A stretch of DNA of 64,000 nt from Flavobacteriales bacterium (GCA_028281825.1 JANQJC010000105.1:1-64000); one strand, 5' to 3'; positions 39,148-44,455 are shown, counted from the first letter of the stretch. Notes: generated from the letters alone by a model not told the origin. Numbers and translations are program-made.

Positions 39148-39180
39148 TCAATGCGTACATTGAAAAAATCCCTATCTTTC
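39148..39180 (+). promoter_or_regulatory. TCAATG-N4-CATTGA operator-like palindrome, site 1
   Basis: Perfect inverted repeat TCAATG (39148-39153), CGTA, CATTGA (39158-39163), nine bases before the -7-like box TATCTTTC (39173-39180) of the beta-helix lipoprotein gene. The same core recurs at 42593-42608 with identical spacing to its -7 box. Confidence 0.6.
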
Positions 39181-39216
39181 GCAGCCTATTGAAAATTCCT
39201 AAAAAAGAGCTAATTG

Positions 39217-40446
39217 ATGATGAAAAACCTCTCTCTAGTATTTGCATTTGCTGTGCTGATATCTGCTTGCGGCAATAAGCAAGAAAAAAAGCCTGTTGTA
39301 AGCGACTGGCAAGATATTGAAAAAGACATCCAAACCCAATTAATTACCGTTGAAGATGGCGGCACCATAACCCTGCCTGAAGGTAATTACAAATTTAAGG
39401 GCAGCCTTTCAATGGATGGTAAGAACAATATCACCATTAAAGGGGCAGGTATTGATAAAACAGTTTTTTCGTTTGCTGGGCAAACTGAAGGTGCCGAAGG
39501 TTTAAAAATCAACGACTGTTCGGATATTACACTAGAAGGTTTTACTATTCAAGATAGTAAAGGTGATGCCATTAAAACGCAAAAGGTAAAAACCATTACT
39601 TTCAGGAATATGAAAACTGAATGGACAGGGGAACCAAAAGAAGAAAATGGTGCTTACGGTTTTTATCCAGTTGATTGTGATTCGGTTATGCTAGATGGAT
39701 GTGTTGCAATAGGTGCTTCTGATGCCGGTATTTATGTTGGTCAGTCAAGAGATGTAATTGTTAAAAATTGCGAAGCCTACCATAATGTGGCGGGTATAGA
39801 GATTGAAAACTGTATCAGGGCAGATGTATATGACAACTACTCACATGAAAACACTGGTGGCATTCTTGTGTTTGACATGCCAGGCTTAACCCAAAATGGT
39901 TCTGAGGTAAGGGTTTTCAATAACCGCTCGGTTGACAACAACTTCAGGAACTTTGCACCAGAAGGTAATATAGTGGGTGAAGTTCCTCCAGGCACTGGTG
40001 TGATGATTTTAGCAACCAAAAATGTTGAAATCTTCAATAATGAGATTAAAGACAATAACACAATGGGTGTGGCTGTTGTAAGTTATAAGCTAGTGAGAAA
40101 GCCTTATGATGACCCAAATTTCAATCCTTATCCAAAGGGGGTTTATATCTATGAGAACAAGATTAGCCGTGGCTCTTTAACTACTGCCAACCTCGATTAT
40201 GATTTGGGGAAACTAATCATGTTGAAATTCCCAGTTGGAAGACCCGACATCATATGGGATGGTATTCTTGACCCAGATATTGAAGCAGCTAATGGAAACT
40301 ATGTTGCCCCATACCAGATTTGTGTAGGTGACAATGGTGGTGCTAAGTTCGCGATGATTGATGCTGCTAACGATTTCGAAAACATCGTTACTGACAAAAC
40401 AAATTACGACTGCCAGAGAGAGAAGTTAAGTGCTGTTAACCTGTAA
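39217..40446 (+). CDS. Right-handed parallel beta-helix lipoprotein
   Basis: About 409 residues; ATG at 39217 or 39220 (TTG at 39214 is less likely). The signal peptide ends in a lipobox (AVLISAC, Cys ~19). The mature part is a right-handed beta-helix: repeated 'N-I-x-I-K-G', 'DITLEGFTIQDSKGDAI', 'DVIVKNCEAYHNVAGIEIENC' rungs with Asn ladders and Cys/Phe core stacks. Such folds are usual in polysaccharide lyases and carbohydrate epimerases, but this subfamily (TIGR03805-like) has no proven enzyme. It lies 9 bp before the acylase start and behind a palindrome shared with the acyl-CoA dehydrogenase, hinting at a role in lipid or acyl-compound use. Confidence 0.85.
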   Translation: MMKNLSLVFAFAVLISACGNKQEKKPVVSDWQDIEKDIQTQLITVEDGGTITLPEGNYKFKGSLSMDGKNNITIKGAGIDKTVFSFAGQTEGAEGLKINDCSDITLEGFTIQDSKGDAIKTQKVKTITFRNMKTEWTGEPKEENGAYGFYPVDCDSVMLDGCVAIGASDAGIYVGQSRDVIVKNCEAYHNVAGIEIENCIRADVYDNYSHENTGGILVFDMPGLTQNGSEVRVFNNRSVDNNFRNFAPEGNIVGEVPPGTGVMILATKNVEIFNNEIKDNNTMGVAVVSYKLVRKPYDDPNFNPYPKGVYIYENKISRGSLTTANLDYDLGKLIMLKFPVGRPDIIWDGILDPDIEAANGNYVAPYQICVGDNGGAKFAMIDAANDFENIVTDKTNYDCQREKLSAVNL

Positions 40447-40455
40447 TAATTGATA

Positions 40456-42573
40456 ATGAAATTAAAGTATCTCCTTAGCCTGATCCTTGTTGGTTCAGGC
40501 TTTTTTGCCTTTTCCCAAAACAATGAGTTTAAAATAGACCCAAGTAGGATAGAAATCGTACGCGATAGTTTTGGGGTTCCACACATCTTCGCCCCTACCG
40601 ATGCCGAAGTAGCTTATGGCCTTGCCTGGGCGACCGCTGAAGACGACATAGAAAATAGCCAGTTTATAATTCTTGCTATAAGAAGTATGCTGGGCAGACA
40701 CCTTGGAATTGAAGGTGCCAAAATTGATTATGCTGTTCAATTACTTGGAGTTAATGAATATGTTGAAGAACATTACGAGAAAGAAATACCAAACGACTTT
40801 AAAAGGGTGTTAGAAGGATATGCTGCAGGTGCCAATGCCTACTTTGAAAAATACCCAGAACATGTACATGTAAGACAAGCTCTACCTGTTAAACCGCAAG
40901 ACCTGGTGGCTGGCTACATGTTGGCAATGGCACTTATGGGCGGTGTTGATGGAACTATCAACTCAATAATTGATGGTAGGATTGTGAATAATGTGCCAGA
41001 TGACTTAAGAGATGGCATTGGCTCAAATGCATTTGCGTTTAACTCCCCTGCTACTGAGCATGGAAATAGTTTTTTGGCAGTAAATGCACATCAACCTATT
41101 GAGGGGCTATTATCGTGGTATGAGGCTCATGTATGCAGTGAAGAAGGTTGGAATATTGTAGGTGGCCTATTTCATGGTGCAACCACCATATTTTTAGGAA
41201 CCAATGAAAACCTCGGATGGGCGCACACCACTGGGCAGCTGGACGAGAAGGATGTGTTTAAATTAAATATGCATCCTAAAAAGAAGAAAAAACTATACAA
41301 GTTTGATGGCAAATGGTTGAAGCTGAAGAAACGCAAAGCCCGTTTCAAAGTTGCTTTGGGCAAGAAAAAGAAATTCCGTATTCCAATTTCTAAAGCCTAC
41401 TGGGAAAGTGTTTATGGCCCTACCCTGGTTACCGACCACGGTGTGTATGCATTAAGGATGCCTGCATTGATGGATATCAAGCCATCGTTGCAATGGTTTA
41501 GGATGAACAAGGCCAAAAACTTTAAAGAGTTTTATGAAGCACTGGAGCTACAAGGGCTTTCTCGTCAGAATATTACTTACGCCGACAAAAACGATACTAT
41601 CTTTTTTATCTCTAACGGGCTTATACCCAAAAGAACTAATGGTTACAACTGGCTAAAAGTGGTGCCAGGAGATACTTCGGCAACACTTTGGACAGAGTAC
41701 TTGCCGTTGGATAGTTTAGCCAGTTTTCTTAACCCAGACTGTGGTTATGTTTTCAATACCAATAATGCGGGTTTTGAAGCGACTTGCGAAACTGGGAATG
41801 GATTACTTCCTCAATATAACGAGCACATTGGATATAGAGAAGAGTTCAACAACAGAAGTCTTCGTTTCTATGAAATGATGAACAGAAAATACGCCAATAA
41901 AAAAATCACTTTCCAGGACTTTAAGGATATCAAGTTTGACCATACTTATCCAAAGAAAGTGACTTTTAAAGGGGATATCTGGTTTGATGACATGTTTGAA
42001 ATGAAGGATGAAGACTATCCTGAGATTGCAGATGCATTGAAGCATATCAGGGCTTTTGACCATGAAGCTGATACTAATGATGTGAACTTTCCTGTATTCA
42101 TGTACACCGTTTATTTTATGTTGAAAAGCGATGGCAGCTTGAGGCGCGCGGCAGAAGACGACAAAGAGAAAAGACTGGAACTCTTCGCTAGCTGTATCAA
42201 AAAAGCTAAAGACCATATGATGGAGCACTTCGGTAGACTGGATGTGCCGGTGAGTAAAGTACAAGTGCTAGAACGTGGTGGAAAAGTTGTTGCATTGGAT
42301 GGTGGCCCTGATGCAATTCGTGCGGTGTTTGGTCACTTTATGGATGATGGACGTGTGAGAATGGTAGCTGGTGATGGGTATATTCAACTTACTAAGTTTA
42401 CTGACAAAGGCCCTGAAATATGGTCTATTAGCCCCTTTGGTGCTTCTAGTTTTCCTGAAAGCCCACATTATAACGACCAAATGAAAATGTTCAGCGAGCA
42501 CAAGCTAAAGCGCATGAGTCTTGACAAAGAGACGGTTTACAAAAGCGCAAAGAGGATATATCATCCTGAATAA
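40456..42573 (+). CDS. Penicillin acylase-family Ntn-hydrolase (acylase)
   Basis: 705 residues from ATG at 40456 with a signal peptide (to ~20, GFFAFSQ). The alpha region opens with IVRDSFGVPHIFA and AYGLAWATAEDDIENSQ, both family signatures. The nucleophile is Ser190 in GIGSNAFAFNSPATEHGNSFLAVNAHQP, where autocatalytic cleavage would free the beta chain. The beta chain keeps GATTIFLGTNENLGWAHTT and NITYADKNDTIFFISNG. Homologues cleave penicillins, acyl-homoserine lactones or other N-acyl amides; the substrate here is unknown. Residues ~272-310 form an unusual Lys-rich insert (several KKKK runs). It forms an operon with the beta-helix lipoprotein. Confidence 0.9.
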   Translation: MKLKYLLSLILVGSGFFAFSQNNEFKIDPSRIEIVRDSFGVPHIFAPTDAEVAYGLAWATAEDDIENSQFIILAIRSMLGRHLGIEGAKIDYAVQLLGVNEYVEEHYEKEIPNDFKRVLEGYAAGANAYFEKYPEHVHVRQALPVKPQDLVAGYMLAMALMGGVDGTINSIIDGRIVNNVPDDLRDGIGSNAFAFNSPATEHGNSFLAVNAHQPIEGLLSWYEAHVCSEEGWNIVGGLFHGATTIFLGTNENLGWAHTTGQLDEKDVFKLNMHPKKKKKLYKFDGKWLKLKKRKARFKVALGKKKKFRIPISKAYWESVYGPTLVTDHGVYALRMPALMDIKPSLQWFRMNKAKNFKEFYEALELQGLSRQNITYADKNDTIFFISNGLIPKRTNGYNWLKVVPGDTSATLWTEYLPLDSLASFLNPDCGYVFNTNNAGFEATCETGNGLLPQYNEHIGYREEFNNRSLRFYEMMNRKYANKKITFQDFKDIKFDHTYPKKVTFKGDIWFDDMFEMKDEDYPEIADALKHIRAFDHEADTNDVNFPVFMYTVYFMLKSDGSLRRAAEDDKEKRLELFASCIKKAKDHMMEHFGRLDVPVSKVQVLERGGKVVALDGGPDAIRAVFGHFMDDGRVRMVAGDGYIQLTKFTDKGPEIWSISPFGASSFPESPHYNDQMKMFSEHKLKRMSLDKETVYKSAKRIYHPE

Positions 42574-42592
42574 TCAGCATCTTATCTAATAT

Positions 42593-42625
42593 TCAATGCA
42601 CGCATTGAATATTTTTATAAATTCG
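42593..42625 (+). promoter_or_regulatory. TCAATG-N4-CATTGA operator-like palindrome, site 2
   Basis: Inverted repeat TCAATG (42593-42598), CACG, CATTGA (42603-42608), extended to 11-bp arms (42588-42613), nine bases before the -7-like box TAAATTCG (42618-42625) of the acyl-CoA dehydrogenase gene. It is followed by TTTT, so it could also act as a weak terminator for the acylase gene. Confidence 0.55.
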
Positions 42626-42649: not shown

Positions 42650-44455
42650 ATGGGACAATTACTGAAAGGTGGTGAATTCATTGTAAAAGAAGACGACTAC
42701 AAGAGCATGTTTATTCCTGAGGAATGGACGGAAGAACAACTTATGATACGCGACATGGTAAAGGATTTTTGTTTACAGGAAATCCATGGACTGGGTATCG
42801 AAAGAGCTGCCTTGATGGATGCTGAAAAAGACCGTGAGCTTATTATTGGTTTACTTGAGAAATCTGCTGAACTTGGTTTATGTGGCTTATCAATAGATGA
42901 AGAATACGGCGGCATGGACCTTGATTTCAATACAGGCCTGCTATTTGGTGAAGCTATTGCTTTAGGTTTTTCATTCGCTACTACTATTGGAGCCCAAACT
43001 TCTATCGGTTCCCTCCCTATTGTATTTTATGGAACCCCAGAACAAAAGCAAAAATACTTACCTGGTGTAGCAAGCGCCAAATTGAAAGCCTCATATTGTT
43101 TAACTGAACCTACTGCGGGCTCCGATGCCAATTCTGGTAAAACAAGAGCGGTGCTTTCAGAAGATGGTACTTACTATACTTTGAATGGACAAAAAATGTG
43201 GATTACCAACGGTGGTTTCGCAGATATATTCATTGTATTCGCCAAGATAAATGACGATGACAAATTGAGTGCCTTTATTGTTGAGAAAAACTTTGGAGGC
43301 ATTGAGCTGGGCAAAGAAGAAAAGAAACTCGGCATCAAGGGGTCTTCAACGGTTCAGGTATTCTTTAGTGATTGTAAAGTACCAGCCGAAAACCTATTGT
43401 CAGAACGCGGTGCAGGTTTCAAAATTGCCCTGAACATCCTAAACACAGGAAGAATAAAGCTGGCTGCGGGTTCTATTGGTGGTTGCAAGTTTGCACTTGG
43501 CAGGGCAGTCTCTTATGCCAATGAACGTAAACAGTTTGACCAACCTATCAGCAATTTTGGTGCGATGAAATATAAGATTGGCGAAATGGTCACCAAGGCG
43601 TTCGCAACGGAGTCGGCCATCTACCGCACAGGAGCTAATATTGACAAGAAAACAGATGAATTGATAGCGAGCGGCATGGATAAGAGTGAGGCTAAATTAA
43701 CTGCCGTTCGTGAGTATGCAGTAGAGTGCGCCATATTAAAAGTGTATGGTTCTGAAGCCCTGGACTATGCAGTTGACGAAGCATTGCAAATACATGGTGG
43801 TATGGGTTATGCTGTTGAAACGGGTGTTGAAATGGGCTATCGTGATGCTCGTATTACAAGGATATATGAAGGAACAAATGAAATCAATCGTTTGCTCTCC
43901 GTTGCAGAATTGACTAAAAGAGCTATCCAAACCAAGGAGATAGACCTGATAACCCCAGGGAAAAAGATACCTGCATATATTTTCGGCCAAATGTTGCCTT
44001 TCAAAAGCAAAGCTGGTTTGGATGAAGAAAGTAATATCGTTCAGAACATCAAAGCTGCTTTCCTTCTGATATCAGGTGCTGCCGGCAATAAGCTAAAGAA
44101 AAAAATGGTGGATGAGCAAGAAATTGTGATGAACCTGGCAGATATATTGGCTGAAGCCTACATCGCAGAATCATTACTTATGCGCATCAAAAAGCTGAAC
44201 GAAAAAGATGGTTACGATAAAGAAGCTATGGAAGTGCAAACTAAGTTATTGAAATTGCATTTGTATGAAGCCCTTGCCAAAGTGAGAAAAGCTGGACAAG
44301 ATGCTATTGGAGGCTATGCTACTGGCTTTGAGAAGAAAATGATGAATTACTTCTTGAAAGTATTAACGCCAAGATATGATGTAAACTCAAAAGAGTTGCG
44401 TAGGGCTGTTGCTGATTATGCCATTAAAAAGAACGATTATCCATTTATAGCATAA
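42650..44455 (+). CDS. Acyl-CoA dehydrogenase, long (~600-residue) type
   Basis: 601 residues: N-terminal and middle ACAD domains (SYCLTEPTAGSDANSGKT, the FAD/substrate signature; KMWITNGGFADIFIVFA), a C-terminal ACAD domain with the catalytic base Glu407 in RIYEGTNEINRLLS, and an extra ~170-residue helical tail as in VLCAD and the FadE-like enzymes of Bacteroidota. It oxidises acyl-CoA to trans-2-enoyl-CoA, probably long chains, passing electrons to ETF. No thiolase or enoyl-CoA hydratase is adjacent. Its upstream palindrome suggests control by a TetR-like fatty-acid regulator (inferred). Confidence 0.94.
   Translation: MGQLLKGGEFIVKEDDYKSMFIPEEWTEEQLMIRDMVKDFCLQEIHGLGIERAALMDAEKDRELIIGLLEKSAELGLCGLSIDEEYGGMDLDFNTGLLFGEAIALGFSFATTIGAQTSIGSLPIVFYGTPEQKQKYLPGVASAKLKASYCLTEPTAGSDANSGKTRAVLSEDGTYYTLNGQKMWITNGGFADIFIVFAKINDDDKLSAFIVEKNFGGIELGKEEKKLGIKGSSTVQVFFSDCKVPAENLLSERGAGFKIALNILNTGRIKLAAGSIGGCKFALGRAVSYANERKQFDQPISNFGAMKYKIGEMVTKAFATESAIYRTGANIDKKTDELIASGMDKSEAKLTAVREYAVECAILKVYGSEALDYAVDEALQIHGGMGYAVETGVEMGYRDARITRIYEGTNEINRLLSVAELTKRAIQTKEIDLITPGKKIPAYIFGQMLPFKSKAGLDEESNIVQNIKAAFLLISGAAGNKLKKKMVDEQEIVMNLADILAEAYIAESLLMRIKKLNEKDGYDKEAMEVQTKLLKLHLYEALAKVRKAGQDAIGGYATGFEKKMMNYFLKVLTPRYDVNSKELRRAVADYAIKKNDYPFIA

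Follow-up and report, generated by a model that had tools for sequence, protein, structure and literature searches.

The two perfect palindromes found in the window (as we call the whole 64,000-nucleotide stretch of Flavobacteriales DNA that was analysed) are most likely operators of a homodimer of a MarR-family protein, here named MarR-A, that controls a fatty-acid catabolism regulon. Computed support for this reading is given by the motif itself, its association with genes, its conservation, its co-occurrence with the regulator gene, and the autoregulatory sites of relatives; MarR-A would bind the palindromes directly. The features concerned are collected in Table 1.

Table 1. Predicted operators, promoter elements and genes of the window, with the two MarR-family genes found elsewhere in the genome
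Feature	Position	Strand	Remarks
Operator 1, TCAATG-CGTA-CATTGA (predicted)	39148-39163	.	Upstream of the beta-helix lipoprotein/acylase pair; matches the genome motif; homologous site before the G397 beta-helix gene
Putative -7 box, TATCTTTC	39173-39180	+	9 nt after operator 1
Beta-helix lipoprotein (PF13229/PF05048)	39223-40446	+	Predicted regulon member; 46% identical to the operator-bearing G397 beta-helix protein
Penicillin-amidase-family acylase (PF01804)	40456-42573	+	Same predicted operon as the beta-helix gene; 38% identical to the operator-bearing G397 acylase
Operator 2 (predicted), full dyad AATATTCAATG-CACG-CATTGAATATT	42588-42613 (core 42593-42608)	.	Upstream of the acyl-CoA dehydrogenase; orthologous position occupied in 8 relatives
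Putative -7 box, TAAATTCG	42618-42625	+	9 nt after operator 2
Acyl-CoA dehydrogenase, 601 aa (PF02771, PF02770, PF00441, PF21263)	42650-44455	+	Predicted core regulon member
MarR-A gene	C80:119103-119573	-	Outside the window, same contig; profile match 6.8e-62
MarR-B gene	C53:79805-80239		Profile match 2.2e-54

Both repeats reported in a preliminary description of this DNA are present where it had placed them, and they are not expected by chance: TCAATG-N4-CATTGA occurs twice in the window, with no other copy, as had also been noticed, and not once in 100 dinucleotide-preserving shuffles. The core of the second site, TCAATG-CACG-CATTGA, is the centre of the longer dyad listed in Table 1. That each repeat stands nine bases ahead of a -7-like box holds as well, with site 1 ending at 39163 and site 2 at 42608. 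The -7 consensus of Bacteroidota is TAnnTTTG (PMC5682007). Among 44 pairs of site and target-gene promoter, drawn from nine genomes, 28 have a good match to it no more than 30 nt downstream of the site, compared to a mean of 11.7 and a maximum of 20 pairs in 500 letter shuffles. Among the 28 boxed pairs, 9 nt is the commonest distance between site and box (six pairs), and most distances range between 5 and 11 nt.

Throughout the genome, a 4.02-Mb draft in 144 contigs, the exact TCAATG-N4-CATTGA pattern occurs in five places, with none for a reversed control, and two of these (on contigs C23 and C37) are located inside genes and look like chance. Allowing one mismatch gave 56 matches against 13 for the control, and because many of these matches fell inside genes, the CRYG centre that the best genomic copies have in common was added to the pattern. 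The refined motif, TCAATGCRYGCATTGA, identified 15 sites at up to two mismatches against one for the control, and its core, AATGCRYGCATT, was found in 10 places against none. Intergenic sites precede the thiolase gene fadI, which is followed by fadJ in the same direction (L035), the acyl-CoA dehydrogenase (ACAD) gene of the window, a DUF4442/acyltransferase operon (L037), a lipase-like hydrolase gene (L034), the beta-helix/acylase pair of the window, and, downstream of AtuA, a gene that leads into a further ACAD (L036); one more site overlaps an ACAD start codon (L038). Matches are therefore non-random and gather at fatty-acid and acyl-CoA genes, in agreement with that half of the earlier prediction, whose other half, a TetR-family gene carrying the motif, was not borne out in this genome. 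Core matches on contigs C75, C88 and C119 were rejected as operators, as they lie inside unrelated genes and were taken as chance. A class-wide scan of 394 other genomes with the exact 16-mer gave four matches, about as many as chance would, and each of them lay within a mechanical ORF or overlapped one; in this exact form the operator is thus not widespread. Scans at genus, family and order level returned this genome only.

Conservation was found at the level of the orthologous gene. When public genomes were scanned with the ACAD protein, 80 loci were returned, the closest matches being all from Bacteroidota, and 13 relatives were examined in detail for a palindrome upstream of ACAD. It is present in eight (L055, L056, L057, L058, L061, L062, L063 and L064; examples are CCAATGCATGCATTGG and ACAATGCGTGCATTGT), which answers favourably the check on related species that the preliminary description had proposed. 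It is absent in the remaining five (L054, L065, L067, L069 and L070), including the nearest relative by ACAD (L054, 81%), which lacks MarR-A as well; the relatives are mostly draft metagenome-assembled genomes, so that absences may be assembly gaps. In more distant Bacteroidota (among them Arcicella, Pseudarcicella, Larkinella and Xanthocytophaga) the same place before ACAD is taken by a sister palindrome, TATGCnnGCATA. With intergenic or coding status assigned by hand from mechanical ORFs, 35 of the 49 places of the core AATGCRYGCATT in the eight relatives with MarR-A are intergenic, versus 2 of 13 in the five without (Fisher P = 0.0004). By our own count, 25 of the 35 intergenic cores precede an ACAD, a thiolase, a FadH-like gene, malate synthase, a fatty-acid hydroxylase, a lipase or the MarR-A/PTPLA pair. 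Targets in relatives comprise ACADs, thiolases, FadD, a FadH-like reductase, malate synthase, a fatty-acid hydroxylase and a secretory-lipase-like hydrolase; MarR-A is a target too, together with a PTPLA-like dehydratase, and two genomes have a TetR gene among the targets. Operators hence stand before beta-oxidation genes and are conserved across species, as expected of a fatty-acid degradation regulon.

These data support a regulon for general fatty-acid catabolism (beta-oxidation and lipase here, and in relatives the glyoxylate shunt and acyl-CoA synthetase too), to which the acyl-amide and surface proteins, namely the acylase and the beta-helix protein, belong as extra, accessory members. 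The strongest support for linking these two with the acyl-CoA dehydrogenase is the arrangement seen in relative G397, where the acylase and beta-helix homologues reside on separate contigs, each with its own copy of the motif. The three genes had previously been united under one repressor in a surface-lipid or acyl-amide pathway; the grouping stands, but that pathway was too narrow in scope. A second penicillin-amidase-like acylase gene is found elsewhere in the genome (L014 1983-3014, G000:C25); the palindrome with one mismatch in its vicinity, TCTATGGATGCATTGA, falls within an adjacent gene and seems to be a chance match.

With regard to the regulator, in two of the relatives (L058 and L061) a MarR-family gene lies beside ACAD and carries the palindrome in its own promoter, and in L058 it is divergent from fadI-fadJ. 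A profile built from four MarR proteins (those of L058 and L061 and, as MarR-B types, those of Arcicella and Pseudarcicella) gave two strong matches in the genome studied here, MarR-A and MarR-B (Table 1). Orthologues of MarR-A were found in exactly the eight relatives with the ACAD site, while the gene is absent from all five site-less relatives, the fifth of which (G395) has the MarR-B type only. This co-occurrence in 13 relatives yields a Fisher P of 0.0008 with kinship ignored, and because it comes, like the helix and operator counts given below, from few related lineages, such P values overstate independence. A site is located within the promoter of MarR-A itself in four relatives (G399, G400, G401 and G402); none was found in the MarR-A promoter of this genome, so that the link here rests on orthologues. 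Orthologues from L061 and L058 score 49.2 and 55.1 bits, respectively, against PF01047 (cut-off 24.6) and hence carry the MarR domain, and the MarR-A of this genome was placed with them by its profile match. The predicted model of a MarR-A-type protein has secondary structure H-H-H-H-H-E-E-H-H, with pLDDT of about 76-92 in the winged-helix part, weaker ends and 69.5 overall; its best fold matches are MarR-family structures, and helical ends flank the winged helix as in that family. The palindrome and the autoregulatory sites, as sequences, are consistent with a MarR homodimer binding an inverted repeat.

Both paralogues are within one large family, and another regulator than MarR-A could read the motif. 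MarR-B heads a 3-hydroxyacyl-CoA dehydrogenase operon and has GGTATGCATGCATACT in its promoter. It belongs to the same family as MarR-A, AATGCRYGCATT and the sister operator TATGCATGCATA are distinguished mainly by a single base in each half-site, and a TATGC site precedes the same ACAD in distant Bacteroidota, all of which would fit MarR-B reading the palindromes (AATGCACGCATT) as well, with MarR-B or both proteins as the regulator. We consider this unlikely, however, because the only clear promoter site that TATGC..GCATA has at a fatty-acid operon of this genome is that of MarR-B itself, and because G395, with MarR-B and without MarR-A, has no clear promoter AATGC site.

MarR-A and MarR-B types fall, in fact, into two fully supported groups, and across the few lineages available the sequence of the recognition helix differs between the paralogues in step with the operator. 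MarR-A types have the helix PNSLSR and autoregulatory sites of the form AATGC..GCATT in four of four cases, and MarR-B types have (P/A/T)RS(L/M)TR and TATGC..GCATA in seven of seven, with L100 as the near-match TATGC..GCAGA. A related MarR gene stands directly upstream of ACAD and its TATGC site in Arcicella and Pseudarcicella. Asn67 and Ser70 are at the start of helix 66-78 in the model of the L061 protein, a helix taken as the recognition helix by homology to other MarR structures. A scenario to which we give an even chance is that two Bacteroidota MarR paralogues divide fatty-acid catabolism following an operator shift from TATGC..GCATA to AATGC..GCATT, matched by Arg-to-Asn and Thr-to-Ser changes at the start of the recognition helix, and that MarR-A took over the ACAD promoter, which is TATGC-type in distant relatives such as Cytophagales, and recruited the outer-surface acylase and the beta-helix lipoprotein. 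If true, such recruitment would hint at acyl-amide scavenging as a source of fatty acids. A gene for a secreted 485-aa protein has the near-match GCAATGCAAGCATTGA here; in G395, a relative with MarR-B and no MarR-A, its homologue (44% identical) is preceded by TATGCGTGCATA. A hand-over between paralogues would be expected to look like this, but there is one such case.

The preliminary description had proposed a regulator of the TetR/FadR class. In many bacteria, fatty-acid genes are under the control of TetR proteins, and FadR of Bacillus, a TetR-family protein, governs a fatty-acid degradation regulon through the operator TGAATGAnTAnTCATTCA, which has a similar half-site (TGAATG/CATTCA); FadR differs from the system described here in protein family and in its wider spacer. 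In this genome the motif shows no link to a TetR gene: six such genes were inspected, and in approximately 1.5 kb of flanking DNA to each side of them it does not occur. It is a MarR-family gene that occurs together with the motif, with a copy in its own promoter in several genomes; a TetR/FadR regulator was consequently rejected here. In relatives G400 and G401 a TetR gene does carry the motif, but these genes look like targets, with a different palindrome, CAAACGTTTG, nearby, and presence of the motif tracks that of MarR-A, so that we regard a FadR-like TetR repressor reading the palindrome as very improbable. A second palindrome, (ACC)AAACnAnCGTTTG(GT), was seen near MarR-A sites or fatty-acid genes (L194 2532-2670, L197 2547-2620, L199 2500-2545 and L210 1780-1850), about 60 bases before the ACAD match in L070, and downstream of the MarR-A site at the TetR gene in two genomes; possibly it belongs to a TetR regulator acting under MarR-A.

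Finally, site 2 can fold into a stem of 11 bp with a T-run behind it (-9.5 kcal/mol, z = -3.5). It is nevertheless scarcely credible, and already largely refuted, that site 2 is merely the intrinsic terminator of the acylase operon (an AT-rich stem, then T-rich DNA), as the preliminary description had feared, and site 1 a coincidence. Eight relatives keep the core of site 2 before ACAD irrespective of the upstream neighbour, and this holds for divergent genes too, next to which one would not expect a terminator; in addition, a scan requiring at least three G-C pairs flags none at site 2, its stem being poor in such pairs, and site 1 forms no hairpin of its own.

For control by MarR-A we propose the following mechanism. 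A MarR-A homodimer would sit on AATGC-RY-GCATT, with the winged helix of each protomer reading one AATGC half-site. With a distance of about 5-11 nt, most often 9, from the site to the -7 box downstream, the bound dimer should cover the core promoter and block transcription, which argues for repression, and we infer that MarR-A represses rather than activates. Its regulon in this genome would include fadI-fadJ, several acyl-CoA dehydrogenases, the DUF4442/acyltransferase operon and the lipase-like hydrolase, with the beta-helix lipoprotein and the N-acyl hydrolase (acylase) as accessory members. Long-chain acyl-CoA, or a related thioester, made when fatty acids are available, would then release MarR-A; acyl-CoA is suggested as the inducer by the nature of the target genes and by analogy to CouR.

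CouR of Rhodococcus jostii is a MarR-family protein whose operator binding is abolished by p-coumaroyl-CoA (PMC4737184). It resembles our model for MarR-A as a MarR-family repressor of a CoA-thioester catabolic regulon that is released by a CoA-thioester, a property of CouR that MarR-A would share, and the CouR box, which overlaps the promoter, is likewise an inverted repeat, built on the hexamer cATTGA/TCAATg (PMC4737184). The arms of that box, however, are in the opposite order and have a 5-bp spacer (CATTGA-N5-TCAATG), while MarR-A is linked to AATGC-RY-GCATT, and CouR regulates aromatic acids, whereas MarR-A is linked to fatty-acid genes. A PDB chain named CouR matches the MarR profile weakly (E = 1e-7). 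FabT of Streptococcus and Enterococcus, a MarR-family protein that regulates fatty-acid synthesis and senses acyl-ACP, an acylated carrier, shares with MarR-A its family, the connection to fatty-acid metabolism, a palindrome and autoregulation (PMC9083066, PMC5487221). The FabT structure 6jbx is the second-best fold match of the MarR-A-type model, with 16% identity in the fold alignment. Unlike MarR-A, which is linked to breakdown genes and would be released by acyl-CoA, FabT represses synthesis with acyl-ACP as co-repressor.

MarR catabolic regulons are already known as a kind. In the open-licence papers that we searched, no description of a MarR-family fatty-acid regulator or regulon in Bacteroidota was found, and control of fatty-acid breakdown in Bacteroidota appears undescribed; as the search covered open-licence literature, a missing report is weak evidence of novelty. 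Our results supply a named regulator gene, a 16-bp operator, a list of targets and a predicted change of specificity between two paralogues, and they place a penicillin-amidase-family acylase and a beta-helix lipoprotein in fatty-acid use. The system could also provide an acyl-CoA-responsive genetic part for Bacteroidota.

Further observations can be reported. A mechanical ORF of this genome with a repeated ISSFKEPNQTTT peptide (L235 852-1205; G000:C3, about 11.2-11.6 kb) is suggestive of an array of direct repeats, for example CRISPR, and not of a protein. The MarR-A gene is often divergent from a PTPLA-like gene (3-hydroxyacyl-CoA dehydratase family), which is followed by a short-chain-reductase-like gene (L061, L062, L136, L140 and L142); these genes may form a cluster for fatty-acyl elongation under common control. 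In two cases (L196 1913-2491 and L215 2550) the MarR-A site shares bases with the start codon of this divergent PTPLA-like gene, so that operator and coding sequence constrain each other, the palindrome partly encoding MNARIEKYL.
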